Shown here: positions 1 to 64,000 of the stretch, piece by piece
Layout of the letters: every line of letters starts with the position of its first letter
Numbering within the stretch: the stretch's first letter is position 1
Translations under genes and position numbers: made by a program
Notes under the pieces: model-generated
The model's input: only the letters and a program-made list of their open reading frames with translations
Database searches by the model: none
What the model was told of the DNA's origin: nothing
IMG/VR virus record: IMGVR_UViG_3300027857_000018
Coordinates: 1-64,000 of that record
Strand: one strand, 5' to 3'
DNA length: 64,000 nt
Source of the DNA: a virus

Positions 1-214
1 CGCCCGCCTGCAGGTCCATGATCACTCGATGATCGCCAAGATCGGCCTCCGCGAACTCCAGCAGCGCCAGTTCCGCGTCGCGCTTGTACGCCGCGTAGAT
101 GACCGCCAGCGGGCGGCTCTCGCGCAGTTCCGCCTCAAAGTCGATGCCGAGACGGACAGCTTGCAGGCGTGCGTCGTTGGCGATCTGTTCGGAGAGGCGT
201 GCGTCGGGGGTCAC
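1..214 (-). CDS. Small phage protein, 3' truncated at window edge
   Basis: First 71 codons of the same gene seen complete at 58305-58631 (108 aa). The protein is helical and charge-rich with no recognised domain. It starts four bases inside the end of the upstream 61-aa gene, so the two are probably translationally coupled. In the virion module it lies between portal and scaffold-like genes. The window edge removes its C-terminus. Function unknown. Confidence 0.75.
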   Translation of the reverse strand, partial: MTPDARLSEQIANDARLQAVRLGIDFEAELRESRPLAVIYAAYKRDAELALLEFAEADLGDHRVIMDLQAG

Positions 215-396
215 AACCGTTCGTTCACAAAATCAATAATGCACCGCCGCAACTCATCCTCGGAGAAGTCCCCGCCTTCGCCCGATGGACGATAGATACG
301 GATCTTGCCCATGCCGAGGTCGGTCATGATGACGCGGCCGGGTCCGTCGCCGAGGACCATGCGCGGGGCGAGGATGGGGATGTCAGGCGGGAACAT
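211..396 (-). CDS. 61-aa conserved hypothetical downstream of portal
   Basis: Start chosen at the Met beginning MFPPDIPILAPRMV, which overlaps the last codons of the portal gene by 14 bases; the longer open frame upstream lies wholly inside portal. The counterpart at 58628-58813 is nearly identical in protein sequence. It has a mixed beta/acidic composition (GRVIMTDLGMGKIRIY) and no recognised domain. A head-associated role is inferred only from position. Confidence 0.7.
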   Translation of the reverse strand: MFPPDIPILAPRMVLGDGPGRVIMTDLGMGKIRIYRPSGEGGDFSEDELRRCIIDFVNERL

Positions 397-3290: not shown

Positions 3291-3574
3291 AACCACCCCA
3301 CCACAAACACCCCATCCCCGGGAATCTCGGTCATCAGCACCAGCCCCGTCGCCGAGAAAATGCCGGTCGGATCGCCATCCGTATCCTTCAGCCCGCTGCC
3401 GTCCACGTAATTGGTCGGCCAGAGGTTGTTCATGAGCATGGTCGTGCCTGGCGAGGTCGCGTCGTTGAACCAGAAGTCGTTGAGATACGGCTGCGTCGTC
3501 ACAGAGAAGGAAGTAATCGTCGCGGTTCCCAGCACCACTAGACTTTGGCCAGTGAACGTTCCCGAGCCAGCCAT
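3287..3574 (-). CDS. 95-aa putative virion surface protein, paralogue A
   Basis: Start set at the ATG preceded by an AGGAGG Shine-Dalgarno (MAGSGTFTG); upstream codons lack a ribosome site. It shares a pattern with the 93-aa product of the next gene upstream: TGTATITSFS or LGTATITSFS, then SPG, then WP(T/S)(N/D)YV, indicating tandem duplication. Thr/Gly/Ser-rich beta composition and head-module position suggest a decoration-type protein, but this is inference. The right-copy version is 61002-61289. Confidence 0.8.
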   Translation of the reverse strand: MAGSGTFTGQSLVVLGTATITSFSVTTQPYLNDFWFNDATSPGTTMLMNNLWPTNYVDGSGLKDTDGDPTGIFSATGLVLMTEIPGDGVFVVGWL

Positions 3575-3600
3575 GTCAGCCTCCTGCGTGAAAGGCTGTG

Positions 3601-3882
3601 CTAGGCTCCGCCCACCGTCGCCGTGCCAGTCGTCTGCACCGTGACGCCCACCTTGCACACGAGGCCGACGGGCGTTGCCGGGCCGCCGTACTTGAACCCA
3701 CCCGGCGTCACGTAATCGGAGGGCCAGATACAGTTCGAAAGCTCGGCATCGCCCGGGGATGCGCAGTCATGCACGCTCGCCGGAACCGTGGTCGGCGTCA
3801 CAGTGTGGGAAAAGCTCGTGATAGTCGCTGTTCCGGTCACGATCGTCGATTTCGGACCCTTGGTCGTGCCGTTCCAGGCCAT
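3601..3882 (-). CDS. 93-aa putative virion surface protein, paralogue B
   Basis: Begins MAWNGTTKGPKST; its ATG shares a base with the stop of the upstream 125-aa gene, which fixes the start. The central TGTATITSFS motif and C-terminal WPSDYVTPGG match the neighbouring 95-aa protein, so these two are paralogues. Two to three cysteines distinguish it. Probable small structural protein; function not shown. Right copy: 61316-61597. Confidence 0.8.
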   Translation of the reverse strand: MAWNGTTKGPKSTIVTGTATITSFSHTVTPTTVPASVHDCASPGDAELSNCIWPSDYVTPGGFKYGGPATPVGLVCKVGVTVQTTGTATVGGA

Positions 3883-4259
3883 TAGTGCCGACTCCTTTCC
3901 ACAATCCCCTCCAACCGCACGCCATGCTCGATCGCCCGCAGCCGCCACCGCTCCGGCGCACGATCGCGGGGTAACCCATACCGCTCCAGAATCTCGCCGC
4001 CAGCCTGCATCACGCGCTGATGCGCACCTGGCGCCATGAGCGTCGTCAGGTGTAGCAAGTAGCCGTAACCGTTCACGTCCGGGTCATCCTCGACCATCAG
4101 CCGGATCGTGACCGTGCCGCCGTCGTAGGAGACACCCACCGCCCAGTCGTATCCTGGATAGTGCTTCGCCAGATCCTGTCCCACGGCGAGGCACATGTCC
4201 TGTTCGGTGAGAGCATGCTCGCCGTAGGATTGGAGGTCGATGGAGAGAGTGTCGGTCAC
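3882..4259 (-). CDS. 125-aa conserved hypothetical
   Basis: Acidic alpha/beta protein (MTDTLSIDLQSYGEHALTEQ...) overlapping the upstream gene by ATGA. No domain recognised. Conserved almost unchanged in the right copy (61597-61974) despite many silent changes, so it is under selection. Located in the head-gene cluster between terminase and portal. Confidence 0.75.
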   Translation of the reverse strand: MTDTLSIDLQSYGEHALTEQDMCLAVGQDLAKHYPGYDWAVGVSYDGGTVTIRLMVEDDPDVNGYGYLLHLTTLMAPGAHQRVMQAGGEILERYGLPRDRAPERWRLRAIEHGVRLEGIVERSRH

Positions 4260-4531
4260 GGCATTTCCACCACGCCACGTAGTCGTTCCCGGAGTTTGCG
4301 TGCGATCTTATCCGCCAAATCCACCGTCATGTCGGCGCCGACGGCATCATCCTCTGACATTGTCTCGTAAATGATCTTGGAAATTGCCTGCTCCGACAGA
4401 TCTAATGCCGTCGAATGATAAGGTCTACTTCCCCAATACCACCAGTTTTCGCCGCCTGCGATAAGTCCCTGGTTGCTCTCTGTCACAATGGCAACTGGCT
4501 TCATGAACGATTGGGGTTCGCGCCAGACCAT
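4256..4531 (-). CDS. 91-aa conserved hypothetical
   Basis: Protein beginning MVWREPQSFMKPVAIVTES with a helical C-terminal half (SEQAISKIIYETMSEDD). The start abuts the stop of the 26-aa membrane gene. The right copy at 61971-62246 preserves it with conservative changes. Function unknown. Confidence 0.75.
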   Translation of the reverse strand: MVWREPQSFMKPVAIVTESNQGLIAGGENWWYWGSRPYHSTALDLSEQAISKIIYETMSEDDAVGADMTVDLADKIARKLRERLRGVVEMP

Positions 4532-4612
4532 CTATTTGCCTATCAACGACCAAGCCACCAGCAAAAAGCCGAAGCAGGCTAACCCGCCAATCGCGATTCC
4601 CACGAAATGCAT
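4532..4612 (-). CDS. 26-aa single-pass membrane protein
   Basis: Tiny gene starting at an ATG sharing a base with the upstream stop (TGATG) and ending next to the following ATG. It encodes MHFVGIAIG, a hydrophobic stretch to LLVAWSLIGK, one membrane span. The right copy (62247-62327) keeps the frame and length with mostly third-position changes and two conservative residue changes, strong evidence it is translated. Function unknown. Confidence 0.75.
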   Translation of the reverse strand: MHFVGIAIGGLACFGFLLVAWSLIGK

Positions 4613-4932
4613 CAGTCCCACGCCAGCGAGAACGTGCCGCCACCGCTCGCGAATGACAGTCCGGCGAACAACGGCCAGTCCAACGTCGTCACGGCACCCA
4701 CCGCCATGCCGCCGGACCCCACGCTCCAGATCGTGCCGGACCCCGAGGCCGTTGACGTACTGTCGTTGATGTAGGCGGCTGCCGTATTCGTCGCGACGCA
4801 GACGATCTTGCGGAAATAGCCCAGCGGCATGGACGCAGGCGAGACGCTACCCGGAGCCTTCAGCGCCGCGACATTCGTGGAGACGCTATTTAGTGTCGCA
4901 TTGGCACCGATGACCCGGACATCAGCCGTCAT
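4612..4932 (-). CDS. 106-aa putative structural protein
   Basis: Ala/Gly/Thr/Ser-rich beta-type protein (MTADVRVIGANATLNSVSTN ... FSLAWD). Composition resembles small head or tail decoration proteins. Overlaps its neighbours and is nearly unchanged in the right copy (62327-62647). Assignment is by composition and context only. Confidence 0.75.
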   Translation of the reverse strand: MTADVRVIGANATLNSVSTNVAALKAPGSVSPASMPLGYFRKIVCVATNTAAAYINDSTSTASGSGTIWSVGSGGMAVGAVTTLDWPLFAGLSFASGGGTFSLAWD

Positions 4933-5215
4933 GCTGGGTCTCCGGCGACAGCGTCTCTGCGGTCATGACGGGCTCGGCAGAGGATGGCGTCCCCGCATCC
5001 CCCACTGGCGACAGCGGCTCCTGCGCGAACTGGCTCGGCGCCGCTTCGGGCGCCACCGTTGCTGCGGCGGCGCCAGCCATCGCTCGGAACGTATTACGCC
5101 CCATCTCGACGCCCGCATCTTCGTCCGGGTGCGTGTCCCAATTGCGAATGCGGTTGCCGAGCGAGTGGAGCGCCTCGAACGCGGCACGGGCCATGGCTTC
5201 GATGTCGAGGGTCAC
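4922..5215 (-). CDS. 97-aa hypothetical with length polymorphism between copies
   Basis: Starts MTLDIEAMARAAFEALHSLG; N-terminal helices, then an Ala/Pro/Glu-rich tail. The right-copy protein is 103 aa because of an 18-bp insertion in the tail (around 62700-62720), so the C-terminus tolerates length change. No domain recognised. Confidence 0.7.
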   Translation of the reverse strand: MTLDIEAMARAAFEALHSLGNRIRNWDTHPDEDAGVEMGRNTFRAMAGAAAATVAPEAAPSQFAQEPLSPVGDAGTPSSAEPVMTAETLSPETQHDG

Positions 5216-5511
5216 TTATGCCCCCTAAATCCGAACTCGCCCCGATCCGTCTTCATCTTCGCGACCTTTCCTGGCGGGTGTTTCAGCGGCGACGCAGCAG
5301 GGATGGCTGTGGGTTTGTGCAGCTTGCGGTCCGCCTTGGCGTCGATCTTGTGCTCTTCGGAGGTGGACATGCGGCCGGCTTTCACCGCCTGCGTCGCGCG
5401 TGCCTTCGCGTTGGCTGCGTGACTGGCATCTGGAATTGGGTACGATCTATCAGGGCCGGCGAACGTCGATGCCGGAAGTTTCGCACGCGCCTTGGTGCTG
5501 AGAACTGCCAT
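5212..5511 (-). CDS. 99-aa protein with FAGPDRSYP-type motif
   Basis: Begins MAVLSTKARAKLPASTFAGP. The stretch TFAGPDRSYPIPDASHAANA followed by KARATQ is a motif I recall from many small phage head-region proteins; its function is not established to my knowledge. Basic overall. The true start is the ATG at 5511 rather than the TTG before it. Right copy 62945-63244. Confidence 0.75.
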   Translation of the reverse strand: MAVLSTKARAKLPASTFAGPDRSYPIPDASHAANAKARATQAVKAGRMSTSEEHKIDAKADRKLHKPTAIPAASPLKHPPGKVAKMKTDRGEFGFRGHK

Positions 5512-5515
5512 CAAC

Positions 5516-5737
5516 TTAGATCCTCTCTTGATCGCGGCTCAGAACACTTGCACGTCTTAGCGAACATCTCGCGGCTTCCACTCGTTGAATGACAGGCCAT
5601 TCCGGGTAGGCGGCTTCTCCTAGCCAAAAATAGAAGCTAGGCATCGGGCGCGGCAGCACGATTTCTCTTTTGTTGCCGGACTCATCCCAGCCGGAAACAA
5701 GAAGTGGCCTCTTCCAGGGGTTTAATTCTATGGCCAT
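5516..5737 (-). CDS. 73-aa ORF present only in the left copy
   Basis: Encodes [17 protein letters not shown]... with no recognised domain. It occupies a 226-bp segment absent from the right copy and flanked by the direct repeat GCCATCAA at 5507-5514 and 5732-5739. Its ATG overlaps the upstream stop as TGATG, the same coupling the downstream gene uses in the right copy. It is an inserted small gene, or one lost from the other strain by recombination between the repeats. Confidence 0.55.
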   Translation of the reverse strand: MAIELNPWKRPLLVSGWDESGNKREIVLPRPMPSFYFWLGEAAYPEWPVIQRVEAARCSLRRASVLSRDQERI

Positions 5738-6042
5738 CAATCCGCCCTTCCCTGTCGCACAAACCCATCCCGCATCGGCTCAGCCTTGTGCGCCTTCATG
5801 CGCCGATGCGCCGTGCTCTTGCTCGTGCCGAACTCTTTGGCCACGCTCGCGATCGTCTGGCCTGCGGCGTGCCGCTCGGTCATGTGGTGGCCTTGCGGGG
5901 TAGGCTTGGCCGCCTTCGGCAGCTTCCCGCCGGGATCGGCGTTGGCGAACTCCTGTCCCACCTTCTTCGGAATGCCGAGAATGGAATGTCCGTGCGCGGC
6001 TGCCTCCATGGCGCGGCGCTGCTTCTCAGAGACAGGTGGCAT
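5737..6042 (-). CDS. 101-aa protein: N-terminal SEKQRRAM motif plus helix-turn-helix
   Basis: Start at ATG 6042 behind an AGGAG site. Residues 4-35 ([17 protein letters not shown], then [10 protein letters not shown]) form a motif I recall from small phage proteins, loosely resembling DUF3008. Residues 60-85 ([20 protein letters not shown]) look like a helix-turn-helix. The combination suggests a DNA-binding protein in the packaging region, possibly regulatory; this is inference. Right copy 63244-63549. Confidence 0.75.
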
Positions 6043-6048
6043 CAGCAA

Positions 6049-6195
6049 CTCCTATCCAAACGAGCCTTTTATTGTTTCGCCTCGGACATGCTCAGGTCCG
6101 GCGCGGGCCAAGCTAGGGTCTTAACGCCTATACGGGGCAGCCACGGCTAGCCGCGCATCCCGTTCAGTACTCCCCTGCTGACATAGGCCACACCC
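6049..6195 (-). promoter_or_regulatory. Conserved noncoding spacer ahead of head genes
   Basis: About 150 bp without a credible ORF in a region where genes otherwise overlap. It is almost unchanged in the right copy (63556-63702), so sequence is constrained. It could hold a promoter or RNA leader for the leftward head operon. No confident -35/-10 pair was picked. Confidence 0.35.
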
Positions 6196-6405
6196 CTATG
6201 CCGGTTCGCTGTCCCTCTCGACTCGTCTCATTTCCGCCGCCTCTGGCGTATGTACCGGTCGCAGCATTGCCGCCATCTCGCGCCCATGCTGCATCGCGTC
6301 TCTCTCGTCTGGGAATGCCATCTCCCACCGACTTGCGAAGCCATCATCCCATTCGATGAGGACGCCCCAGCCTCCGCGATCAGGAAAGGTGGTGATTTTG
6401 GTCAT
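6196..6405 (-). CDS. 69-aa conserved hypothetical after terminase
   Basis: Starts inside the terminase stop (ATGA overlap). Sequence MTKITTFPDRGGWGVLIEWD suggests a small beta-rich fold. The C-terminal half is more variable between copies (right copy 63703-63912). Function unknown. Confidence 0.7.
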   Translation of the reverse strand: MTKITTFPDRGGWGVLIEWDDGFASRWEMAFPDERDAMQHGREMAAMLRPVHTPEAAEMRRVERDSEPA

Positions 6406-8117
6406 CGATCCGCATAAACCGGCGGCGTCGTATCCTCGGCGGAGTAGAGTGCTGGCGGAACTATTTCCATATCGTATATTCTCGACGTAGCGTCAATCAG
6501 GTCTTTTCGTTCCCCAAACGGGAACGTCCTGTACTCCTCGATCAGCGCCAGCGTCACGTCATAGATCCGGCCGTCTTGGTCCGTCGAGCGAATCGCCTTC
6601 GCGACGAGGTCTGCCGAGCCGGCCTGCACCGTCGCCATCTGCAGCTTCGTCAGCCCCTCTACCGGGCGAAATTCAATCTCCCCGAACAGCTTCGACTCCT
6701 GGTCCGTCTCAACCCGCCACACCGCAGGCTTGCCATCATGCCACACGGCCAGCGGCAGATAGAAACGCGAATTGCGGAAGTCCGGTTCCAGGCGCTCCAC
6801 CCGCTCCGTCTTGCTCTGCCCAGAGTCCCGCACCCAATTCAGCTCTTTGAGCGTAAACCAAGCCTTGTCGCGCTGCATCTGCTCCTGGAAGTACTCGTCG
6901 TCAGATTGGGCGCCGTATCTTTCGTAGCCCACAGCGATGTGCCCAACGCCAACCGCGCGCGACCACTTACGGTACAACTCCCGCATCCGCACCCAGCGTT
7001 CCGATAACGTCATCCGGTGGCAATGGCCGTCGAGGAAGAATTTGGCGCCGTTCCTCGCCAGCCCTACCACCGCCATCGCCGTGTTGTCTGAGGTCGCCGA
7101 TCGGCCGCGGCTTGGGTCGATCATGATGTAGACGTTCAGCGTCCGCGGACGCACCTCATAGGGTCGTAGCCATTCGGTGCGGAAGGTAGCATCACTGTCG
7201 GCGAGCGGGTTCTGTAGGAGCTGCGCCGCCACAATCGTGCGGGACTGTGTCCGTAGCCGACGCTGCCACTCAGCCACCGAAAAAAGCACCGGGCGACCGT
7301 CCATTCGACCGTTATGCGTAGCAGGATAGATCCGTGGCTTGGCTGCTCCACGCTTGATGATCTCCGCGTAAGTGTCCGCGAGGGAATAACGCGTGCCGAT
7401 ATGCCGAGCGGCGCCCCCATATTCCGGTTGCACGCCCAGGTTGTCACTCAACCCCCATGCCTCCGTCGTCTTCTGCACCTGGTCAGGTGTCGTCACGCTC
7501 TCACGCGTCACCACGTCATCGTAGACTCGCAGGCGGAAGTGCTTGCCAGTGGGCTGTCCGTCCACCAAGCCCCACGCCTCAACCGTCGCCTCTTTCGGGT
7601 TGCCACGGCGCTTGACGATGATGCCGCCGTCCTCGCTCCACTTCGGCGATTCCTTCGCCGGGTCAGCGTAGAAGATATCCGGGTACGTCGCCTTTAGAAC
7701 GTCGTTGATCTCGAGTTCAACCTTGATCTGCTTGAGAAACCCCTTCGCGATCGGCCGTGTATGCGAGAAGATCCCAACCGTTATCTCCGGATCGCGGCAA
7801 ATATCCTGGATCGTCATGCCGAACGTGATTATACTCGACTTGCCGTGCTCTCGTGCCCATAGGTCCAGGTATCCGTCGCGGGCGGTCTCCACTTCCCGGC
7901 AGCGGTCGAACAGCCAGTCTTTGTCGAGGTCCTCCCGGCGCAACAGCACGACCAGCAAAAAGAATAGGTCGCGCCGGCCCAACTTCTGTCGTAGCTTGCC
8001 GACCTGACGGATCTTGCGCGCGTCGGCATGGCAGTCGCGGTAAAACTCCCAGCTAGCCGTCCGCGTCGGCGGGTTTGGCAGCACCCAGTCTTCGAAGCAT
8101 GATTTCGTCTGCCCCAT
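6402..8117 (-). CDS. terL: Terminase large subunit
   Basis: About 571 aa from ATG 8117. An ATPase P-loop variant, AREHGKSS, lies at roughly residues 88-95, typical of phage terminases that use a degenerate Walker A. A C-terminal nuclease start (YIMIDPSRG) lies near residue 335. The enzyme powers DNA translocation into the procapsid through portal and cuts concatemers. The 65-base overlap with the upstream gene is long, so the exact start could be slightly downstream. The 3' end is repeated at 63909-64000. Confidence 0.92.
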   Translation of the reverse strand: MGQTKSCFEDWVLPNPPTRTASWEFYRDCHADARKIRQVGKLRQKLGRRDLFFLLVVLLRREDLDKDWLFDRCREVETARDGYLDLWAREHGKSSIITFGMTIQDICRDPEITVGIFSHTRPIAKGFLKQIKVELEINDVLKATYPDIFYADPAKESPKWSEDGGIIVKRRGNPKEATVEAWGLVDGQPTGKHFRLRVYDDVVTRESVTTPDQVQKTTEAWGLSDNLGVQPEYGGAARHIGTRYSLADTYAEIIKRGAAKPRIYPATHNGRMDGRPVLFSVAEWQRRLRTQSRTIVAAQLLQNPLADSDATFRTEWLRPYEVRPRTLNVYIMIDPSRGRSATSDNTAMAVVGLARNGAKFFLDGHCHRMTLSERWVRMRELYRKWSRAVGVGHIAVGYERYGAQSDDEYFQEQMQRDKAWFTLKELNWVRDSGQSKTERVERLEPDFRNSRFYLPLAVWHDGKPAVWRVETDQESKLFGEIEFRPVEGLTKLQMATVQAGSADLVAKAIRSTDQDGRIYDVTLALIEEYRTFPFGERKDLIDATSRIYDMEIVPPALYSAEDTTPPVYADR

Positions 8118-14685: not shown

Positions 14686-16017
14686 ATGGAAAAAATCACC
14701 GAATTGACGGCCGAACAGGCCGCGATGCTCGCTGCGACGCGGGACGAGCATCTGCGGCATGGACTCTGCTGTGATCCGGCCGATCGCCCGCGCGCAACTT
14801 CAGCCTTCGAGCGAATCTACCAGCGGCTGTCGCTGAAGGCGCCGTGGGTGATCTGGGTCAGCAGCCCTCTCGGCGCGCATTTGGCGCACGCGCTGCTGAC
14901 GGCGACAGGTTTCCGGGCTCAGGTCCGGGCTCAGGTCCGGGCTCAGGTCCGGGCTCAGGTCCGGGCTCAGGTCGGGGCTCAGGTCTGGGATCAGGTCGGG
15001 GCTCAGGTCTGGGATCAGGTCGGGGATCAGGTCGGGGATCAGGTCTGGGATCAGGTCGGGGATCAGGTCTGGGCTCAGGTCTGGGATCAGGTCGGGGATC
15101 AGGTCGGGGATCAGGTCCGGGCTCAGGTCTGGGATCAGGTCCGGGATCAGGTCGGGGATCAGGTCGGGGCTCAGGTCCGGGCTCAGGTCGGGGCTCAGGT
15201 CCGGGCTCAGGTCGGGGCTCAGGTCGGGGCTCAGGTCGGGGCTCAGGTCGGGGCTCAGGTCTGGGATCAGGTCTGGGCTCAGGTCCGGGATCAGGTCTGG
15301 GATCAGAAAATCGACTTCATGCCGGCCACATTATTCGGTCAGCACGACGCCGGCTGGGTTGCCTGGGTCGTGGCGGCCGTCGCGATCGGCGTGAAGCTCC
15401 GAAGCGATACTGCGGACACATTCAGGATTTTTCTGGACCTCTGCCAGTCCTGCATGTGGGCGTACTGCTTCCGGGGTGCCGTCATCGCATGCGACCGGCC
15501 GGCAACGATTCACCGCGACGAAATCGGGCGGCTGCACAACACCTCCGGGCCGGCGATGGCGTTCCGCGACGGGTGGACGATCCATGCCGTCCATGGCGTT
15601 CGGGTGCCGGGCTGGATCATCGAACACACCTCCAGGATCACCGTCGCCACAATCGAAAGCGAGCAGAATTCCGAGATTAAGCGGGTCATGATCGAGCTAT
15701 TCGGCTGGGATCGCTACGCCCAGGAGTCCGGCGCGGAAGTCGTCGACCACGACGAGCGCTGGGGGACGCTCTATCGCCGCGTCGCCGGAACGGAACCCAT
15801 TCTCTGGCTCGGCGTCATAAACCGTTCGCCGGAGCCGGATGGGTCGTTCCGGAGGTATGTGCTGCCGGTGCATCCCGAGCTGCGACTGCTCCCCGATCCA
15901 GCGCTTCCCGGAGACGATTTCGGAGCACCTCAGAAGCTCACCGCGTTCAACGCCGTCGCCAGCACGTTCGGAATGACAGGAGCCGTCTATGCGGCGCAGC
16001 TGAGCGCAGAGAGCTGA
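14686..16017 (+). CDS. DUF6745-type protein with variable tetrapeptide array
   Basis: 443 aa. Residues 1-75 are helical. Residues 78-207 consist of 32 tetrapeptides of form (A/D)QV(R/G/W). Residues 215-440 match the DUF6745 pattern as I know it: [40 protein letters not shown], then IELFGWDRY and a GTLYRR segment. The domain is widespread in bacteria and often carries similar QVWDQV repeats; its biochemical role is not known to me. With the preceding gene it forms a two-gene module, here in a phage with its own promoter and terminator. Confidence 0.75.
14917..15306 (+). repeat. 12-bp coding tandem array, about 32 units
   Basis: Units read G(C/A)T CAG GTC (C/G/T)GG. Only two of twelve positions vary: the second base (Ala or Asp) and the tenth (Arg, Gly or Trp). 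Codons for Gln and Val never change, so the array expanded recently or is homogenised. It is in frame within the DUF6745-type gene. Confidence 0.95.
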
Positions 16018-53671: not shown

Positions 53672-53748
53672 TTATGCCGCGCTCGCCCACTGCACGATAC
53701 GGGCCTGCTTGGCCTGTGTCTGCGTGAGGGCAAACCCACCCAAATAGT
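53672..53748 (-). CDS. Capsid exon 6 (C-terminus)
   Basis: (Y)YLGGFALTQTQAKQARIVQ then WASAA and TAA. Could begin at 53760 instead. Confidence 0.78.
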
Positions 53749-56700
53749 TGATATTGTTCACTAAAGCTCGCTAGGCTCTAGCCGCCGTTGCCAGCAGCTC
53801 ATGGTTTCCCATGAGTCCAGACCATATCATCACCGGTTGCCCAGTGCTGTGCGCTTCCGGCCGCTTGGCCGTACTCCCCGAAGGGATGGTCGTTGCTCCT
53901 TCCCTCTTGCGAGGGCTCGGATCAGGATTGCCGGCGGCCTTACCCGCTGCGGTGTTCCCTGAGTTCACACAGTTTATAACGCGAGGCCTACTTAGGTTAA
54001 CCACGCGATACCTTTGTTCCGACCATAGTCGGATGGGATAGCCTGTTTATTCACCGCTCTTCGCTGCGTAGCGGCCGTGCTTGAAGTTTCCGTGCCGTGT
54101 ATTCGTCGGGCCGCCGGCAGCTTGCCTGCGGATTCCTTTGACGATCCGTCCCACCTGAGCCCGGGACAGGCCGAACATCTTCGCGACCACATATTGCTGG
54201 TGCCCGTTCGCGACGAAGTGGCGGATTTCTGCCACGGTCTCGTCGGTCACTTTGCATTGGCCGTTTCGTTCGCCGGGGCAATGCCGGTCCTTGGCAACCA
54301 TATCGGCCAAGTTATCGGCATGCGTTCCGAGGAACAGATGTTTCGGGCGCACACATGCATGGTTATCGCAGGTATGGCAGACTTCCAACCCACGAGGAAT
54401 GACGCCTTTGGCGAGAAGGTAGGAAACGCGATGAGCATACACTGGCATGGAACCCCATACCGCATGCACCCTCAACTGTCCGTATCCGTGACTCTTGCCT
54501 TTGGTCCATTCCCAGCAATCGTCGTCCTCCTCTGACGATCTGCTGAAACCAGATTCAAACACCTCAAGCACCGCTGCGGCTTTCACCGCAGATTGGACTA
54601 TATCTTCACCCCAGATCGCTTTGGGGGCTGGGCGCTTCCGCGGGGCTTCCCGCGTACTCGCTTGCGCGATAGTCTCTGAACCTTCCGGCATATCCGAACC
54701 GGCTTGGCTGCTGATTGCCATATCGTGATTACCTCCGAAGACTGAGGCAACTTACCACGACTTAGGGTTTCCAGCAATTCACCCAGTGAATTCCCTAGCT
54801 CGAAGGCTAGGCTGCGAGGCGCCATCCACCACGCATCTCTTCAGGCACGACCAGTGCTTCGGCGACCGTGTCTTCCATAATCTTCGCGCCGGATCGCAAC
54901 TCCGACACCGCTTTCGCTGCTTACGGTTTCCCGTAAGATGGGACTATATCATGATCTCTGCGGAACGTCCACGGAGACCCTTCGCGCTTCGGGGGAGCAT
55001 TCCCCCTACGGCCTTTCGGCCTAGTCTCTGGACCTTCCCCTTGCGGGGCTTGGCTGCTGATTGGCATAGGCCCGGTCAAAGCCCTTAGCTTTCCAGCAAT
55101 TCACGAAGTTTTCAGTGCATCGTCGCCGATGCATGCGGCAAAGTTTTACCGAAGAAGAAAGCATTATCGCTTAGTCCATTCGTCCAGGCCGTAAAGTTAG
55201 TCGCGACCTGATAGGCACCGGAGCCGTAGTTTCCTTTCGGCACGTTCGTCTGTTCGATGAACCGCACGCCTTCGAACTTGCCGATTTCGCCGTTGTAGAT
55301 CATCTGGAAGCCTTCGTCGCGGTATTGGTAGACGCTTTCCAGATCGTTCTTGACAGGACGCCACGTCGACGGCCACGCAATTCCGAAATACTCATCCCCT
55401 GCATACGGGGGTATGTTCCTTTCTTTCATTGCGTCCACGATACTTTTGATATGGTTCTTGCGAAGATTGACGTTGTTCGTCGAGGTCGCAGTCCCATTGG
55501 TCGTCAGCGTGATCAGCGTCGTGTCGGTGCCGGCGGATGCCACCACCTTGAGCGGGGTGCTGTAGAACTGGTACCATGCTTGGCTGTCGAGGGCCTTTTT
55601 GGCGTCGTTCTTGAGCACTTTGTTGATTATTTCCTGTACTGGATGTTTGGACAAGTTGTCCAAGAAGCCAGTGTAAGGAACGGCGTTGCCCAACTCAAGA
55701 ACAGTTCCAGTTCCTTGAGCTATCGTGAAATTCGTTTGGGGCAGCGTCGAAGTCTCGGTAAGCGTCGTGCCTCCTGTTGCTACGTCGTTGTAGACGTTCC
55801 AGGTGAACAACTGCGTCATGTTCATGCAGGATCGCTAATCCTGCACCGCTTTTAGCAGCTCACGGTTTCCCGCGAGACCAGATCATATCATGACCCCATG
55901 AGGGCCCGGTGCGCTTCGGGGCGCTTGCCCCTACTCCCTTCCGGGATGATCGTTGAACCACTCGCCTGTCGGCCAAATGGCTGCTGATTGCCCAATCCTC
56001 ACACTTTTCAGGCCATCGCGGCCGCCGTTGCCGGCCACGCTGTGGCAGTGAGGCTCTAAGGGTTTCCCAGCAATTCACACCGTTTGCACCGTGTCTTTCA
56101 ACGCGGTGGGGCTAGATGTTAACCCTTGTGAAGTCCCTTGTCGGTGAAGTCTTTCGCATCCGTTGCTGTTACTTCGCCGCGTCACCTACGCGGGTCCAGA
56201 CCCTTCCGGGCGGGGCGGCATTTCTGCCGCCCTCTCATACTCTCGCATGAGACCAGAGCACATCATGGCGCGATCGGTTCGAGCGCTTTGCGTGCGCTCT
56301 TGCCTCTCTCACCTCTCGCGTATGCTCGTTGAGGAACTCGGCGAGGCGATCGACTGTCTTGGATTTGGTAAGCCGTAGGAACTCCAGGATCAGATCGACG
56401 TCTGCTTGCGTGTAGCACGTATTGTTGCGCTTTCCCTCGGTGCGGGAGCGCTCCATGCGGAGTTCGATCAGCCGAAGGAGGATCTTCCCTCTCTCGACCT
56501 TCTCTGTGCTGGCCAGCCTCGGCAGCATGATCGTCAGGAAGCGTTGCAGGTTGGTTGTCGTCGAAACGTGGATGAGTTTGATCATCCGGCCCGTCTCGCA
56601 GCCATACCGCTTGCTGACTTGCTGCTGCACGTGGAAGCCAACTCCGATTTCCTGCATCGTAGTGATGATCCGCTCGACGATTCCCTCGTCGGTATTGCCG

Positions 56701-57040
56701 ATCGTCGCACGCGCCTGAAGCCGGAACCCTCCGCGCTTTCGCTGCGGGAACACCATGAGAGCGATACAGCCCTCGCCGTCCATGATGCCTGCAAGCCACG
56801 AAAGCCTAGCTACTAAGCCGATTTCCTGCTGGTTGTCTGTATTCACCGGATTGTTCCTTATCAGGACCGGGACCTTACCAGATGTTCCAGCATATAGCGA
56901 GATTTTAGTTCTGCCTTGCGATGTTAACAGAACTGGCGAAACTTGCAGAGCGGCTGCACCGCCGTCCGCAAAATATCTGACAATTCGAGACTGTACATGT
57001 AGCCGCCAAGACTATTGACGGCCCAGAGTTGGCCAGCCAT
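53672..57040 (-). CDS. Major capsid protein (N4-gp56 type), split into six exons
   Basis: Exons on the minus strand: 57040-56927, 56160-56122, 55813-55148, 54875-54828, 54042-54000 and 53748-53672. Joined they give about 328 aa with no internal stop. The product starts MAGQLWAVNSLGGYMYSLEL and ends QARIVQWASAA, and runs in the order I know for N4-gp56-type capsid proteins (KFRQFC, GLHKG, FTWNVY, PYTG, MKERNIPPY, FFFGEDTVAEA, DYGR). Each 5' junction follows a U and the first four introns end in G, as group I introns require. Unspliced RNA meets stops at once after exons 1 and 2. An AAAGGG site precedes the ATG, 12 bases after the scaffold gene. The protein builds the icosahedral shell. The junction into exon 6 is uncertain: 53761|53760 also stays in frame (332 aa). 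Confidence 0.88.
53749..53999 (-). ncRNA. Group I intron 5 (about 251 nt), no ORF
   Basis: Core nearly matches intron 2: GGCAATCCTGATCCGAGCC, CAACGACCATCCCTTCGGG, GATGATATGGTC (53820-53831) and GGGAAACCATGAGC. The 3' end is uncertain. Family fit (WYYLGGF) and spacing from the last hairpin favour 53749, where the intron would end in A. The alternative is the G at 53761. Confidence 0.78.
54000..54042 (-). CDS. Capsid exon 5 (43 nt)
   Basis: AIPSDYGRNKGIAW plus one T. It follows PEEMRG and continues to Y(Y/N)LGGF. Ends TGGT|TAACC. Confidence 0.82.
54043..54827 (-). ncRNA. Group I intron 4 (785 nt) with HNH ORF
   Basis: Contains GTGAATTGCTGGAAACC, GGCAATCAGCAGCCAAGCC (54701-54720), TTCAGAGACTATCGCG and GAAGATATAGTCC (54595-54607). 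Ends AAACAG|GCTATC. The HNH frame starts in the P4 element and stops four bases before the 3' splice site. Confidence 0.85.
54047..54721 (-). CDS. HNH homing endonuclease in intron 4
   Basis: Up to 224 aa. CWEWT at 69-73, AHRVSYLLAKG at 96-106, CHTCDNHACVRPKHLFLGTH (115-134), NLADM, then a C-terminal helix-turn-helix (VVAKMFGLSRAQVGRIVKG). The first 50 residues are encoded by the ribozyme core and may be untranslated: GTG near residue 51 (VLEVFESGF) is an alternative start. HNH_3 family. Confidence 0.88.
   Translation of the reverse strand: MAISSQAGSDMPEGSETIAQASTREAPRKRPAPKAIWGEDIVQSAVKAAAVLEVFESGFSRSSEEDDDCWEWTKGKSHGYGQLRVHAVWGSMPVYAHRVSYLLAKGVIPRGLEVCHTCDNHACVRPKHLFLGTHADNLADMVAKDRHCPGERNGQCKVTDETVAEIRHFVANGHQQYVVAKMFGLSRAQVGRIVKGIRRQAAGGPTNTRHGNFKHGRYAAKSGE
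54828..54875 (-). CDS. Capsid exon 4 (16 codons)
   Basis: EDTVAEALVVPEEMRG, continuing FFFG of exon 3 as in family members. Confidence 0.85.
54876..55147 (-). ncRNA. Group I intron 3 (272 nt), no ORF
   Basis: Contains GTGAATTGCTGGAAAGC, CCAATCAGCAGCCAAGCC (55048-55065 region), TCCAGAGACTAGG and GATCATGATATAGTCC (54941-54956). Starts AAAACTTT after GGT; ends ATTATG|GAAGAC. Confidence 0.85.
55148..55813 (-). CDS. Capsid exon 3 (222 codons)
   Basis: From QLFTWNVYNDVATGG to NAFFFG. The ATG at 55825 in the same frame is in the intron and is not the gene start. Confidence 0.88.
55814..56121 (-). ncRNA. Group I intron 2 (308 nt), no ORF
   Basis: Contains GTGAATTGCTGGGAAACC (P4 region), GGCAATCAGCAGCC (55979-55992), TTCAACGATCATCCCGG (P7 5' strand, about 55941-55957) and ATGATATGATC (P7 3' strand, 55881-55895), then GGGAAACCGTGAGC and a hairpin. 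Ends ACG|CAG. Confidence 0.82.
56122..56160 (-). CDS. Capsid micro-exon 2 (13 codons)
   Basis: GAT...GGT encodes DAKDFTDKGLHKG, which is exactly the segment missing between FRQFC and QLFTWNVY. The next codon is TAA. Too short for gene finders. Confidence 0.82.
56161..56926 (-). ncRNA. Group I intron 1 (766 nt) with LAGLIDADG ORF
   Basis: Begins TAACATCGC, ends in G at 56161. Core-like GACAACCAGCAGGAAATC opens the ORF and CATGATGTGCTC (P7 region, about 56256-56267) closes it, so the endonuclease frame runs through the catalytic core. Sense orientation. Subgroup not assigned. Confidence 0.75.
56235..56846 (-). CDS. LAGLIDADG homing endonuclease in intron 1
   Basis: 203 aa from GTG 56846. A LAGIMDGEG motif lies at residues 18-26; only one motif copy is clear, so it probably acts as a homodimer. 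The C-terminal half is helical and basic. The first and last codons overlap ribozyme core elements. It would cut intronless capsid genes at the exon 1/2 site and could also assist splicing as a maturase. Confidence 0.88.
   Translation of the reverse strand: MNTDNQQEIGLVARLSWLAGIMDGEGCIALMVFPQRKRGGFRLQARATIGNTDEGIVERIITTMQEIGVGFHVQQQVSKRYGCETGRMIKLIHVSTTTNLQRFLTIMLPRLASTEKVERGKILLRLIELRMERSRTEGKRNNTCYTQADVDLILEFLRLTKSKTVDRLAEFLNEHTREVREARAHAKRSNRSRHDVLWSHARV
56927..57040 (-). CDS. Capsid exon 1 (38 codons)
   Basis: MAGQLWAVNSLGGYMYSLEL ... VQPLCKFRQFC. Ends TTC TGT; the next codon is TAA inside intron 1. Confidence 0.85.
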
Positions 57041-58312: not shown

Positions 58313-58631
58313 GTTCAGCGCGCTCGCTCATCTGTTCCGCCAGCAAGTCCGTCTCGGCAGCCGCTGCCGACTGGCGTACGGCCTCAATCGTCCGTATCGC
58401 CTTCACACTGCGATAGACCCGCGCCTGCAGGTCCATGATCACTCGATGATCGCCAAGATCGGCCTCCGCGAACTCCAGCAGCGCCAGTTCCGCGTCGCGC
58501 TTGTACGCCGCGTAGATGACCGCCAGCGGACGGCTCTCGCGCAGTTCCGCCTCGAAATCGATGCCGAGGCGGACGGCTTGTAGGCGCGCATCGTTGGCGA
58601 TCTGTTCGGAGAGGCGTGCGTCGGGGGTCAC
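58305..58631 (-). CDS. 108-aa helical hypothetical (complete)
   Basis: MTPDARLSEQIANDARLQAV; helices throughout, acidic end. The complete version of the gene cut off at position 1. No domain recognised. Confidence 0.7.
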   Translation of the reverse strand: MTPDARLSEQIANDARLQAVRLGIDFEAELRESRPLAVIYAAYKRDAELALLEFAEADLGDHRVIMDLQARVYRSVKAIRTIEAVRQSAAAAETDLLAEQMSERAEHE

Positions 58632-58813
58632 AACCGTTCGTTCACAAAATCAATAATGCACCGCCGCAACTCATCCTCGGAGAAATCCCCGCCTTCGCCC
58701 GACGGCCGATAGATGCGAATCTTGCCCATGCCGAGGTCGGTCATGATGACGCGGCCGGGGCCGTCGCCAAGGACCATGCGCGGTGCAAGGATGGGAATGT
58801 CAGGCGGGAACAT
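58628..58813 (-). CDS. 61-aa hypothetical (right copy)
   Basis: Same as 211-396; MFPPDIPILAPRMVLGDGPG. The protein is practically unchanged. Confidence 0.7.
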   Translation of the reverse strand: MFPPDIPILAPRMVLGDGPGRVIMTDLGMGKIRIYRPSGEGGDFSEDELRRCIIDFVNERL

Positions 58814-60992
58814 GCGGCGCCCCCTGCGGCTTTCCAACCACCACCGGCTGCGGATGCATGGCCTCATGCTGCCGCGCCACATGCTGCCCGAACAGATCGG
58901 CAGTATGGCCCAGCAGCGCGCGGAATGTCTCGGCTTTCTCGCTCATCTGCGTGCGCTGCATTTCCAACTGGTCGCTCCTGGCATCCGCCTGTGCCGCGAT
59001 CTGCCTCTCCTGGATCTTGCCCTGTGCCGCGATCTGGGCTGCCTGTACGCGTGCCTGCGCTGTTTGCTGGGCAATCTGCGGGTTTTGGCCGCCTTTCTCT
59101 CCCTGCTGCATCGCCTGGATCGCCTTCTGGAAGTCGAACCCAGGCACCACGAACCGATCGCCATCCTTGTAGCCTGCCAGCGCGAACACCTCGTGCAGTA
59201 CTTCCTCGAAGTTGATGCCCTGCGCCAGCACGGGCCCGAAGAACTTCTGCAGGGATTCAGCTGCCATCAGGAAGTTGCGCATCTTGATCGCCGGGTTGGT
59301 CGCGCCGATCCCGACATTCACCTTGACCGTCGCGTCCTCATCCAGCAACGCATCGGTGACAGCCGAGATGCCGTACTTTTGCTCGATCTTGGCGCGTTTG
59401 CCGCAGATGGCGAGCACCGTCTGGTCTGTCTCATAGGCCCGGATCAGATGCACCAACTGCCGCAACAATGGCTCAACGAAACTCTCGGCGAATACCCGCA
59501 GTTCGTACTCGTTCATCCCGGACGCCTGCCCCGACATCAGGTGCATGCCAGTCGCCGACTGTTCCTGGATCTGGGTCGATTGGACGGATGAGTTCGAGAA
59601 ATCCCCCACCAGTTCGTCAAAGTCGAGATTGATCCGATCCTGTTCGGCGTATGCCGCTTGCGATGGCTCCGGCGGACGGTCCCACACGATGTCCGTCTGC
59701 GGGTCCTTGGTGACGACGACCTTCCCAGGGATGAACGTCCGCACGTCCACGACCTCGATGCCGACGCCCTGCTTGATGAACTGCCGCGGCATCAGCGACA
59801 TTTTCATCTGATCAAAGCGCAGGTTCCAGTCGTCATTCGTCGCCCGCTGCAGATCGCGCACGAGCTCGATCTTGCTCGCTGGGTATGTCTTGTGCGTCTC
59901 CACCACCACGAAGCCGATCGTGAATGGCCGCATGCCGTGGAGGTAGACTTCCTCCAATGGCCGCGGATTGGTCAGCATCGCCGCCTGCCGGCCAAGCGTG
60001 TAGAAATGCCAGTCCCGTCCGCCCCAGCGGATGATGTTCTCGTGCACCCAGACGATATCGAAGTCCTTGGGCTTCCACGCGTCGTGGTCCTTGCCCGGCA
60101 CGCGTCCCGGCTCGCGTGCCCGTCGCGTTGTGTCATCGTCGATGTCCGTCGCCGATCGCATGGCGGAGTCCGGCATCGGGAACCACTCGCCCTTGTCCAT
60201 CATCTCGCGCACGTCGGAGACATACATTGCGATCTGATAGATGAGGTAGGGCGATGCTTCGACGACATTGCGCCAGTCAGCGCCGGGTTCGAAGCGGATA
60301 TTTTCCATCGGGATCAGGTCGACAACGGGCTTGTCGTGGACCTTCTCAATGTCGTCCTCTTCGCGGATCTGGATCTGGCCATCCGCGCCGCGCAGCATCG
60401 CGCCCGTGTGGGGGTCGATCGCCGGCACGATCCGCGGGCCATGGTTGACCTCCTCGTACTTCCAGTAGGCTTTCGCCGCACACAAACCCATGACCTCGCC
60501 ATCCTGGCGCGCACCGACCAGGGTGAGGAACCACGGAATACCGCCCTCGCCCGTCGGCTTGGTCAGGCGGTATTGGAGCAGTTCTTGAAGGACGGCGGCG
60601 CTTGCGACCTGTTCCTTGTTATCCTCGTCAGCGGGCTGGATGTTGACGACGTCCTCGTTAGAAAAGAACGCCGCCGCCGTCTGCGCCTCCGACTTCCGCA
60701 CCATGGCTCTCGACTTCGGCCGGAACAGCGTCGTGCGATGGCCGTATTCGCGCGAGTAGTACTTGCTGTCGATCGAATGCAAGGATTGGAAGGCGCGGAG
60801 GCTTTCGGTCCAGCGGGCGCGTTTGCCACTGTTGACCCAGTTGGTTGACGCTTCGTAGCAGTCGCGCGCGAGCTTCTGTCCTTCCTCGGGGGAAAGATAG
60901 CCACGGCGCGCGCCTCGATCGCCAGGAGCATCGGGTTCCCACCCTCCCGGACCATCCTGGATAGAGGGAGGCGTGAGTTCGCCGTCAGGCAT
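58800..60992 (-). CDS. Portal protein (right copy)
   Basis: 730 aa, about 98 percent identical to the left copy by eye. Differences include A for I near residue 29 and E for K near residue 552. Its ATG lies nine bases after the upstream stop: this is the empty homing site. Confidence 0.88.
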   Translation of the reverse strand: MPDGELTPPSIQDGPGGWEPDAPGDRGARRGYLSPEEGQKLARDCYEASTNWVNSGKRARWTESLRAFQSLHSIDSKYYSREYGHRTTLFRPKSRAMVRKSEAQTAAAFFSNEDVVNIQPADEDNKEQVASAAVLQELLQYRLTKPTGEGGIPWFLTLVGARQDGEVMGLCAAKAYWKYEEVNHGPRIVPAIDPHTGAMLRGADGQIQIREEDDIEKVHDKPVVDLIPMENIRFEPGADWRNVVEASPYLIYQIAMYVSDVREMMDKGEWFPMPDSAMRSATDIDDDTTRRAREPGRVPGKDHDAWKPKDFDIVWVHENIIRWGGRDWHFYTLGRQAAMLTNPRPLEEVYLHGMRPFTIGFVVVETHKTYPASKIELVRDLQRATNDDWNLRFDQMKMSLMPRQFIKQGVGIEVVDVRTFIPGKVVVTKDPQTDIVWDRPPEPSQAAYAEQDRINLDFDELVGDFSNSSVQSTQIQEQSATGMHLMSGQASGMNEYELRVFAESFVEPLLRQLVHLIRAYETDQTVLAICGKRAKIEQKYGISAVTDALLDEDATVKVNVGIGATNPAIKMRNFLMAAESLQKFFGPVLAQGINFEEVLHEVFALAGYKDGDRFVVPGFDFQKAIQAMQQGEKGGQNPQIAQQTAQARVQAAQIAAQGKIQERQIAAQADARSDQLEMQRTQMSEKAETFRALLGHTADLFGQHVARQHEAMHPQPVVVGKPQGAPHVPA

Positions 60993-61001
60993 TTGCCACC
61001 G

Positions 61002-61289
61002 TCACAGCCACCCCACAACAAATACCCCATCCCCTGGAATCTCGGTCATCAGCACCAACCCCGTCGCCGAGAAAATGCCCGTCGGATCGCCGTCCGTGTC
61101 CTTCAATCCGCTACCGTCCACATAATTGGTCGGCCACAGATTGTTCATGAGCATGGTCGTGCCAGGCGAGGTCGCGTCGTTGAACCAAAAGTCGTTGAGG
61201 TACGGCTGCGTGGTCACCGAAAACGAGGTAATCGTCGCGGTTCCCAACACGACCAGACTTTGACCTGTGAATGTCCCGGAACCAGCCAT
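61002..61289 (-). CDS. 95-aa paralogue A (right copy)
   Basis: MAGSGTFTGQSLVVLGTATI, identical in protein to 3287-3574 as far as compared. AGGAGG site before ATG. Confidence 0.8.
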   Translation of the reverse strand: MAGSGTFTGQSLVVLGTATITSFSVTTQPYLNDFWFNDATSPGTTMLMNNLWPTNYVDGSGLKDTDGDPTGIFSATGLVLMTEIPGDGVFVVGWL

Positions 61290-61315
61290 GTCAGCCTCCT
61301 GCGTGAAAGGCTGTG

Positions 61316-61597
61316 CTAGGCCCCGCCCACCGTCGCCGTGCCTGTCGTCTGCACCGTGACGCCAACCCTGCACACGAGCCCGACGGGCGTTGCCGGGCCG
61401 CCGTACTTGAAGCCGCCCGGCGTCACGTAATCGGACGGCCAGATGCAGTTCGAGAGCTCAGCATCCCCGGGCGATGCACAGTCATGCACGCTCGCCGGAA
61501 CCGTCGTTGGCGTCACCGTGTGCGAGAAACTGGTGATCGTCGCGGTGCCGGTCACGATCGTCGATTTCGGACCTTTGGTCGTGCCATTCCAGGCCAT
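61316..61597 (-). CDS. 93-aa paralogue B (right copy)
   Basis: MAWNGTTKGPKSTIVTGTAT; one residue (K to R) differs from the left copy in the C-terminal part. Confidence 0.8.
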   Translation of the reverse strand: MAWNGTTKGPKSTIVTGTATITSFSHTVTPTTVPASVHDCASPGDAELSNCIWPSDYVTPGGFKYGGPATPVGLVCRVGVTVQTTGTATVGGA

Positions 61598-61974
61598 TAG
61601 TGTCGGCTCCTTTCCACAATCCCCTCCAGCCGCACGCCATGCTCGATCGCCAACATGCGCCAGCGCTCAGGCGCTCGATCCCGCGGGAGCCCATAGCGCT
61701 CGAGGATCTCGCCGCCAGCCTGCATCACGCGCTGATGCGCACCTGGCGCCATGAGCGTCGCCAAGTGCAGCAGGTAGCCGTACCCATTCACGTCCGGATC
61801 ATCCTCGACCATCAGCCGAATCGTGACCGTGCCGCCGTCGTATGAAACGCCCACCGCCCAGTCATAGCCAGGGTAGTGCTTGGTCAGGTCCTGCCCGACG
61901 GCGAGGCACATGTCCTGCTCGGTGAGGGCGTGTTCGCCGTAGGATTGGAGGTCGATGGAGAGGGTGTCGGTCAC
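61597..61974 (-). CDS. 125-aa hypothetical (right copy)
   Basis: Counterpart of 3882-4259 with few residue changes. Confidence 0.75.
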   Translation of the reverse strand: MTDTLSIDLQSYGEHALTEQDMCLAVGQDLTKHYPGYDWAVGVSYDGGTVTIRLMVEDDPDVNGYGYLLHLATLMAPGAHQRVMQAGGEILERYGLPRDRAPERWRMLAIEHGVRLEGIVERSRH

Positions 61975-62246
61975 GGCATTTCCACCACGCCACGCAGCCG
62001 TTGCCGGAGCCTGCTAGCGATCTTGTCTGCCATCTCCACCGTCATGTCGGCGCCGATGGCATCGTCCTCCGACATCATCTCGTAAATGATCTTGGAAATT
62101 GCCTGTTCCGACAGATCAAGCGCTGTCGAATGATAAGGCTTGCCTCCCCAATACCACCAGTTTTCACCGCCAGCAATGAGTCCTTGGCTGCTCTCCGTTA
62201 CGATGGCAACCGGCTTCATCAAGGATTGCGGTTCGCGCCAGACCAT
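61971..62246 (-). CDS. 91-aa hypothetical (right copy)
   Basis: Counterpart of 4256-4531; conservative changes such as SRP to GKP. Confidence 0.75.
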   Translation of the reverse strand: MVWREPQSLMKPVAIVTESSQGLIAGGENWWYWGGKPYHSTALDLSEQAISKIIYEMMSEDDAIGADMTVEMADKIASRLRQRLRGVVEMP

Positions 62247-62327
62247 CTATTTGCCTATCAGCGACCAAGCCACCAGCAAAAAGCCGAAGCAGGCCATTGC
62301 GCCAATCGCTATTCCCACAAAGTGCAT
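62247..62327 (-). CDS. 26-aa membrane protein (right copy)
   Basis: Counterpart of 4532-4612; same length, GL to AM change in the membrane span, other differences silent. Confidence 0.75.
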   Translation of the reverse strand: MHFVGIAIGAMACFGFLLVAWSLIGK

Positions 62328-62647
62328 CAGTCCCACGCCAGCGAGAACGTGCCGCCGCCGCTCGCGAACGACAGCCCAGCGAACAGCGGCCAATCCAACG
62401 TCGTCACGGCGCCTACCGCCATGCCGCCAGAACCCACGCTCCAGATCGTACCGGACCCCGAGGCCGTGGACGTGCTGTCGTTGATGTAGGCGGCGGCCGT
62501 GTTGGTCGCGACGCAGACGATCTTGCGGAAGTAGCCCAGCGGCATGGACGCAGGCGAAACGCTGCCCGGGGCCTTCAGCGCCGCAACGTTCGTGGAGACA
62601 CTGTTGAGCGTCGCATTGGCGCCTATAACCCGGACATCAGCCGTCAT
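62327..62647 (-). CDS. 106-aa putative structural protein (right copy)
   Basis: Protein identical to 4612-4932 despite many nucleotide differences, indicating purifying selection. Confidence 0.75.
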   Translation of the reverse strand: MTADVRVIGANATLNSVSTNVAALKAPGSVSPASMPLGYFRKIVCVATNTAAAYINDSTSTASGSGTIWSVGSGGMAVGAVTTLDWPLFAGLSFASGGGTFSLAWD

Positions 62648-62948
62648 GCCGTGTCTCCGGCGAAAGTGTTCCGGCGGTCGTGACAGGTTCGGCAGAGGAT
62701 GGAGGCTCTGTCGGCACTACCATCCCCGCATCCCCCACTGGGGACAGCGGCTCCTGCGCGAACTGGCTCGGCGCCGGTTCGGGCGCTACGGTGGCCGCAG
62801 CAGCGCCAGCCATCGCGCGGAACGTGTTGCGCCCCATCTCGACGCCCGCGTCTTCGTCTGGGTGCGTGTCCCAGTTGCGAATACGATTGCCGAGCGAGTG
62901 GAGCGCCTCAAACGCGGCGCGGGCCATGGCTTCGATGTCGAGGGTCAC
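62637..62948 (-). CDS. 103-aa hypothetical (right copy)
   Basis: Counterpart of 4922-5215 with six extra residues (VVPTEP-like) in the tail. Confidence 0.7.
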   Translation of the reverse strand: MTLDIEAMARAAFEALHSLGNRIRNWDTHPDEDAGVEMGRNTFRAMAGAAAATVAPEPAPSQFAQEPLSPVGDAGMVVPTEPPSSAEPVTTAGTLSPETRHDG

Positions 62949-63244
62949 TTATGCCCCCTGAACCCGAACTCGCCCCGATCCGTCTTCATCTTCGCGACCT
63001 TTCCTGGCGGGTGTTTCAGCGGCGACGCGGCTGGGATGGCGGTGAGCTTGTGCAGCTTGCGATCCGCCTTGGCGTCGATCTTGTGCTCTTCGGCGGTGGA
63101 CATGCGGCCGGCTTTCACCGCCTGCGTGGCGCGTGCCTTCGCATTGGCTGCATGGCTGGCGTCGGGTATCGGGTACGAGCGGTCGGGCCCGGCGAATGTC
63201 GAGGCCGGAAGCTTCGCCCGCGCCTTGGTGGTGAGAACTGCCAT
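62945..63244 (-). CDS. 99-aa FAGPDRSYP protein (right copy)
   Basis: Counterpart of 5212-5511. Here its ATG couples directly (TAATG) to the 101-aa gene, with no 73-aa ORF between. Confidence 0.75.
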   Translation of the reverse strand: MAVLTTKARAKLPASTFAGPDRSYPIPDASHAANAKARATQAVKAGRMSTAEEHKIDAKADRKLHKLTAIPAASPLKHPPGKVAKMKTDRGEFGFRGHK

Positions 63245-63549
63245 TAATCCGCCCTTCCCTGCCGCACAAACCCATCCCGCATCGGCTCGGCCTTGTGCGC
63301 CTTCATGCGCCGATGCGCCGTGCTCTTGCTCGTGCCGAATTCTTTGGCCACGCTCGCGATCGTCTGGCCTGCCGCATGGCGTTCGGTCATGTGGTGGCCT
63401 TGCGGGGTGGGCTTGGCCGCCTTCGGCAGTTTCCCCCCCGGATCGGCGTTGGCGAATTCCTGTCCCACCTTCTTCGGAATGCCTAGCGTCGAATGGCCAT
63501 GCGCTGCTGCCTCCATGGCGCGGCGCTGCTTCTCGGAGACGGGTGGCAT
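63244..63549 (-). CDS. 101-aa [11 protein letters not shown] protein (right copy)
   Basis: Counterpart of 5737-6042, one or two residue changes (I to T). AGGAG site before ATG. Confidence 0.75.
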
Positions 63550-63555
63550 CGGCAA

Positions 63556-63702
63556 CTCCTATCCAAACGAGCCTTTTATTGTTTCGCCTCGGACATGCTC
63601 GGGTCCGGCGAGGGCCAAGCTAGGGTCTTAACGCCTATACGGGGCAGCCACGGCTTGCCGCGCATCCCGTTCAGTACTCCCCTGCTGACATAGGCCACAC
63701 CC
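63556..63702 (-). promoter_or_regulatory. Conserved noncoding spacer (right copy)
   Basis: Nearly identical to 6049-6195, including the part with no ORF. Supports a conserved signal. Confidence 0.35.
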
Positions 63703-63912
63703 CTATGCCGATTCGCTGTCCCTCTCGACTCGTCGCCGTGCCGCAGCTGTAGGCGTATGCACCGGCCGTAGCGTTGCTGCCATCTCGCGCCCATGCTGCA
63801 GCGCGCCTCTCTCGTCCGGAAACGCCATCTCCCAGAGGCTTGAGAAGCCGTCATCCCACTCGATAAGGACGCCCCAGCCGCCACGATCGTGGAAGGTGGT
63901 GATCTTGGTCAT
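63703..63912 (-). CDS. 69-aa hypothetical (right copy)
   Basis: Counterpart of 6196-6405; the C-terminal third differs at several residues. Confidence 0.7.
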   Translation of the reverse strand: MTKITTFHDRGGWGVLIEWDDGFSSLWEMAFPDERGALQHGREMAATLRPVHTPTAAARRRVERDSESA

Positions 63913-64000
63913 CGATCCGCATAAACTGGCGGCGTCGTATCCTCGGCCGAATAGAGCGCCGGGGGTACGATCTCCATGTCGTAGATCCGGGACGTAGCGT
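63909..64000 (-). CDS. terL: Terminase large subunit, C-terminal fragment at window edge
   Basis: Last 30 codons, matching 6402-6493 (RIYDMEIVPPALYSAEDTTP). The rest lies outside the window. Confidence 0.85.
   Translation of the reverse strand, partial: ATSRIYDMEIVPPALYSAEDTTPPVYADR

Follow-up and report, generated by a model that had tools for sequence, protein, structure and literature searches.

A phage major capsid gene in six exons separated by five group I introns

Intron-bearing genes, including capsid genes, have been described in several viral systems. The capsid gene of the zeta crAss-like phage OLRF01000054 was predicted to lie in five fragments, with group I assignments for three of the four insertions (Yutin et al. 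2021, PMC7886860). In the Staphylococcus phage Twort, three group I introns interrupt orf142 (Landthaler and Shub 1999, described in PMC10136302). The polymerase and terminase genes of the Bastillevirinae have up to three such introns per gene (PMC11878797), terL of the Jug phages comes in two to three fragments (PMC12363816), and the capsid gene of mycobacteriophage LittleE contains a single intron whose splicing has been proven (PMC3706429). Mirusvirus capsid genes have many introns, the positions of which vary among relatives (PMC12768974).

Here, we analyze a 64,000-nt window that makes up nearly the whole of a 64,293-base IMG/VR virus record and contains a major capsid gene divided by five group I introns. 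Like OLRF01000054, it comes from an uncultured phage and has a fragmented capsid gene with group I insertions, with a structure predicted from sequence; it differs in having five insertions rather than four and belongs to an unrelated phage lineage. With Twort orf142 it shares multiple group I introns in one gene, short exons and similarity between neighboring introns, although orf142 has three introns and its splicing and exon skipping have been shown experimentally. The Bastillevirinae likewise have several group I introns within a single gene, but in replication and packaging genes rather than the capsid gene, and fewer per gene. LittleE offers a capsid-gene intron with an endonuclease ORF, but this is a lone intron of proven splicing, with the ORF on the opposite strand. 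The mirusviruses match the window in having a capsid gene with many introns at variable positions, whereas their introns are spliceosomal and thus depend on a different splicing system, in viruses of unicellular eukaryotes. The initial annotation of the window had placed five introns far beyond precedent, a claim that the crAss-like gene predicted in 2021 does not allow. We found no report of five introns in one phage gene in the open-licence literature; the present count is one above the highest we found described for a phage gene, which makes it an extreme case of a kind already known. The new features of most use are an intron with a terminal A, a guide common to introns 4 and 5, and the way intron positions are scattered within one capsid family. 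We estimate a probability of about 85% that this is one functional N4-gp56-like major capsid gene in which five self-removing group I introns arrived separately at highly conserved codons.

The capsid frame and its setting

All six exons lie on the minus strand: exon 1 (56927-57040, codons 1-38), exon 2 (56122-56160, 39 nt, codons 39-51), exon 3 (55148-55813, 666 nt, codons 52-273), exon 4 (54828-54875, 48 nt, codons 274-289), exon 5 (54000-54042, 43 nt) and exon 6 (53672-53748, 77 nt with the stop codon). They were delimited by the joined frame and by alignment with relatives, and, when re-joined, yield a 987-nt open frame (stop codon counted) that encodes 328 amino acids, with no stop or frameshift inside any exon; the exon coordinates and product length in the initial annotation are thus correct.

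Relatives of the joined protein are encoded at 31 IMG/VR loci (hereafter, loci are given as L numbers). Around 20 of these have an unsplit gene with 80-87% identity, and alignment with these intron-less versions shows zero indels at all five junctions. Among isolates, the nearest homologs are from Vibrio phages (51% identity) and the E. coli phages HelliStehle and PTXU04 (46-48%), with full or near-full coverage and, in several cases, a capsid annotation. The protein aligns end to end with the capsid family of Vibrio phage 431E45.1 and E. coli phage PTXU04 (46-51% identity over 99-100%) and matches the "major head protein" family phrog_1357 (E 1e-20). It had earlier been described as an N4-gp56-type capsid protein; against TIGR04387 (N4-gp56) itself it scores 41.4 bits, under the cutoff of 60, so we treat it as a remote N4-gp56-like relative rather than a filed member of that family. 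No solved structure gave a credible match to the capsid profile.

The small exons are under purifying selection. Compared with eleven relatives, exons 1, 2, 4, 5 and 6 pooled have a pN/pS of 0.06-0.14, below the 0.18-0.29 of exon 3, values with which a very recent loss of function would still be compatible because synonymous sites are saturated. A rival reading is that the capsid gene is decaying, with introns piled up in a phage unable to splice them all, or that the genome is dead or defective. While five insertions look costly in a highly expressed gene, and the conserved terminal G is missing from intron 5, we consider decay very improbable in view of the low pN/pS of the small exons, the freedom of all exons from stops and frameshifts, and the intactness of all five intron cores and P1 helices (see below).

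The gene sits in a normal neighborhood, with an ORF in the scaffold position and a portal gene upstream, and is single-copy, as no other capsid match was found within the record. The record ends are inexact repeats (window 5-6493 and 58422-64000), in which 5-2575 is 91.8% identical to 58422-60992, 3285-5511 is 89.0% identical to 61000-63244, and 5733-6493 is 90.6% identical to 63240-64000. As a consequence, the portal gene occurs twice (383-2575 and 58800-60992). One possibility is that the genome, ~58.4 kb long, is circular or permuted and that its assembly continued into a sibling strain. Adjoining the portal gene, one end copy has a GIY-YIG/NUMOD3 ORF (2568-3296, minus strand), likely a mobile endonuclease gene, that is missing from the other copy. 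Elsewhere in the window, a tandem array with a period of ~36 nt (14912-15306) lies inside an ORF (14686-16017) that matches DUF6745. The non-identity of the ends (~90% over ~5.5 kb) means that sibling strains may be mixed in the record, raising the possibility that introns belonging to different strains, one or two in each, were merged into a single contig. However, there is a single capsid gene, its exons are in order and in one consistent frame, and three other loci (L029, L043 and L213) each independently have two introns in this gene; we consider such an artefact very improbable as well.

Five ribozyme cores and two endonuclease genes

Each of the five gaps contains a group I core, bearing out the intron class and gene structure proposed at the outset. 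Four of them are recognized by the Rfam group I covariance model RF00028, with matches that are sense-oriented and span the full model: intron 3 (54876-55147, 272 nt; 92.5 bits), intron 4 (54043-54827, 785 nt; 83.0 bits), intron 5 (53749-53999, 251 nt; 54.5 bits, with a fold z-score of -3.2) and intron 2 (55814-56121, 308 nt; 46.8 bits, E 4.8e-10). The first three are above gathering and intron 2 is just short of the 50-bit gathering score. Introns 2, 3 and 5 have no ORF of their own. The 5' half of intron 2 is 86% identical to intron A of the L029 capsid gene and its 3' half is nearer to intron 5 and to intron B of L029; judged by these similarities, intron 2 is a mosaic.

Intron 1 (56161-56926, 766 nt) gave no match in the Rfam scan, probably because its LAGLIDADG ORF overlaps and stretches the core; homology and covariation identify it instead. 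A 90-nt stretch within its first ~105 nt is 75.6% identical to the LAGLIDADG intron of the L043 capsid gene (E 3e-10), and alignment with that intron places P3 (UCUCGC/GCGAGA, 56902-56897 with 56319-56314), P4 (CUGG/CCAG) and P7 (GAGCA/UGCUC, 56327-56323 with 56260-56256). The P7 is two compensatory pairs away from the common form (GACUA/UAGUC). A single placement in intron 1 fits the template, and any such placement was found in 47 of 3000 shuffles. Over ten introns (intron 1 and nine relatives), 99.3% of P3/P4/P7 cells are paired and eight of the 15 pairs are altered on both sides, an alignment that is biased towards structure in that its segments were hand-picked; shuffles and slid alignments all fell far below the observed covariation.

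The ORF inside intron 1 (56235-56846, minus strand, 203 amino acids) specifies a LAGLIDADG-type homing endonuclease with the motif LAGIMDGEG. By itself it scores 15.4 bits in Pfam, below the 23.1 cutoff, but LAGLIDADG_3/_1 are found in its relatives, and a profile of three homologs matches I-CreI, I-CvuI and I-OnuI chains (best E 5.5e-10); the PHROG label for this family is HNH. It has no match in isolate phages. At L044 (2851-3860), a related LAGLIDADG ORF adjoins a group I match (59.1 bits) and is located between ORFs perhaps from a different capsid-like gene, with further endonuclease-like ORFs after it. The ORF inside intron 4 (54047-54721, minus strand, 224 amino acids) is an HNH homing endonuclease (HNH_3, 41.6 bits against a cutoff of 24.8, E 9.7e-11) that is 49% identical to an ORF in a capsid intron of L045.

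Other kinds of insertion are ruled out. Inteins and in-frame insertions are incompatible with the in-frame stops and ribozyme core found in every gap, UAA being the first codon of introns 1 and 2, and programmed bypassing or frameshifting is excluded by the gap sizes and the cores.

Splice sites and the guide common to introns 4 and 5

All five 5' exons end in U, as had been proposed, and a guide shortly downstream of each can form a P1 with it, placing a U.G at the splice site (in intron 1, UUCUGU/GCAGAA); the pairing is short for introns 2 and 3. Under the reading that we prefer, each intron would fold independently within the late transcript, its P1 guide would recognize the end of its own 5' exon, and two group I transesterifications would excise it, to leave the continuous 987-nt coding frame. 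Ribosomes would be kept off the ribozymes by in-frame stops that lie no more than a few codons from the 5' splice sites.

Introns 1-4 end in G, whereas intron 5 ends in A (53749) in place of the almost universal G, in agreement with the initial annotation, which had four of the five ending in G; G is terminal in all the other introns that we examined. The tail of intron 5 (GAACAAUAUCA) aligns with those of intron 2 (GAACAUGACG) and of intron B of L029 (GAACAUUUCG), so the A fills the usual G position. We retain intron 5 as a group I intron on its core, with splicing at the A end being uncertain. A junction at this A restores WYYLGG, a motif invariant among the relatives. An upstream in-frame G (UUUAG/UGAAC, with the slash marking the junction) is less likely to be the 3' end because it falls in a predicted terminal hairpin and its use would break this motif through extra residues, giving WLNNINYLGG. 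A group I intron in the 23S rRNA gene of Coxiella burnetii with a terminal A reportedly still splices.

Introns 4 and 5 have an identical guide, GCCUCGC, and their 5' exons both end in the same seven nucleotides, GCGUGGU, such that crossed pairing is as stable as matched pairing (-7.1 kcal/mol). We predict from these pairings that the intron 5 ribozyme could react at the 5' site of intron 4, in which case the 43-nt exon 5 would be skipped. Precedents for skipping given in PMC10136302 are exons of 23 nt (Twort orf142) and 34 nt (Coxiella 23S rRNA). The guide fits GCGAGGU better than GCGUGGU, and some relatives (L005, L007 and L011) have CGAGG at site 4; we suggest that this fit is a legacy of the past and not an adaptation to site 5.

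These peculiarities raise the possibility that the gene is intact but its introns are not all spliced as drawn, intron 5 being excised poorly or at the upstream G and some RNA lacking exon 5. The unusual terminal A, the interchangeable guides and the skipping precedents speak for it; the position of the alternative G within a hairpin, the recovery of WYYLGG with the A junction and the Coxiella case speak against it, and on balance we find it possible but rather unlikely. Capsid output would depend on five splicing events, as the initial annotation had it, though clean removal of introns 4 and 5 is uncertain because of the terminal A and the common guide. A further step from here—that the capsid gene acts as a general trap for introns in this podophage lineage, and that the guide of introns 4 and 5 together with the 3' end of intron 5 provide alternative splicing, with exon 5 in or out, setting the amount of full-length capsid protein—strikes us as distinctly unlikely.

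Intron positions across the capsid family

Searches with the endonucleases and with exon 3 as queries recovered split copies of the same capsid gene at 13 other loci, in a set of ~200 loci in which some contigs are represented more than once. Removing the insertions restores the capsid frame in L029, L043, L156, L158, L161, L217 and L250, and in L213 the two introns are at codons 12 and 55. Altogether there are ~15 insertion points, at codons 12, 35, 38, 51, 55, 93, 96, 183, 186, 190, 273, 289, 304, 305 and 307 in the numbering of the window. Two of the five window sites are common to other loci: site 3 (codon 273) also holds the L156 intron, and site 4 (codon 289) also holds intron B of L043. 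An RF00028 scan of thirty records (the window and relatives) found matches in the window and L029 alone, both confined to the capsid gene. As this model misses introns like intron 1, the window was also searched with the other introns found, which yielded no additional match beyond the capsid gene. From these comparisons, the capsid gene emerges as one that introns have entered repeatedly, each by a separate acquisition, while most relatives are intron-free.

Two of the split relatives have further peculiarities. In L029 (5574-6818), two introns flank a 12-nt micro-exon of four codons, CCGTATATGGGT. In L045, the HNH intron does not occupy site 4 or 5 of the window, since its P1 and the restored frame put the insertion one codon further. 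Near site 4, the same gene has a core-less insertion of ~57 nt (2038-2097) with an in-frame stop that resembles the start of intron 4 alone (GGCGCCTCGC...) and ends in ATG before AAGCTC; the L045 frame is restored only when it is also removed.

The data do not support multiplication of one intron within the gene as an overall explanation: introns 3 and 4 each have a relative at the identical site in a distant phage, intron 2 is mosaic, and intron 1 belongs to a different type. Under our preferred reading, the introns would have been acquired one by one and not together, with the LAGLIDADG and HNH endonucleases of introns 1 and 4 copying them into conserved positions in the capsid genes of co-infecting phages; in introns 2, 3 and 5, an endonuclease may never have been present or may have been lost. 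With ~15 scattered positions in one capsid family, the spread of introns between phages becomes traceable. The gene also offers natural tests of how cross-splicing is avoided when one RNA holds several similar ribozymes, and of whether an intron with a terminal A is functional. Finally, ordinary gene finders miss this capsid gene, and phages of this kind can therefore be undercounted in virome studies based on capsid markers.
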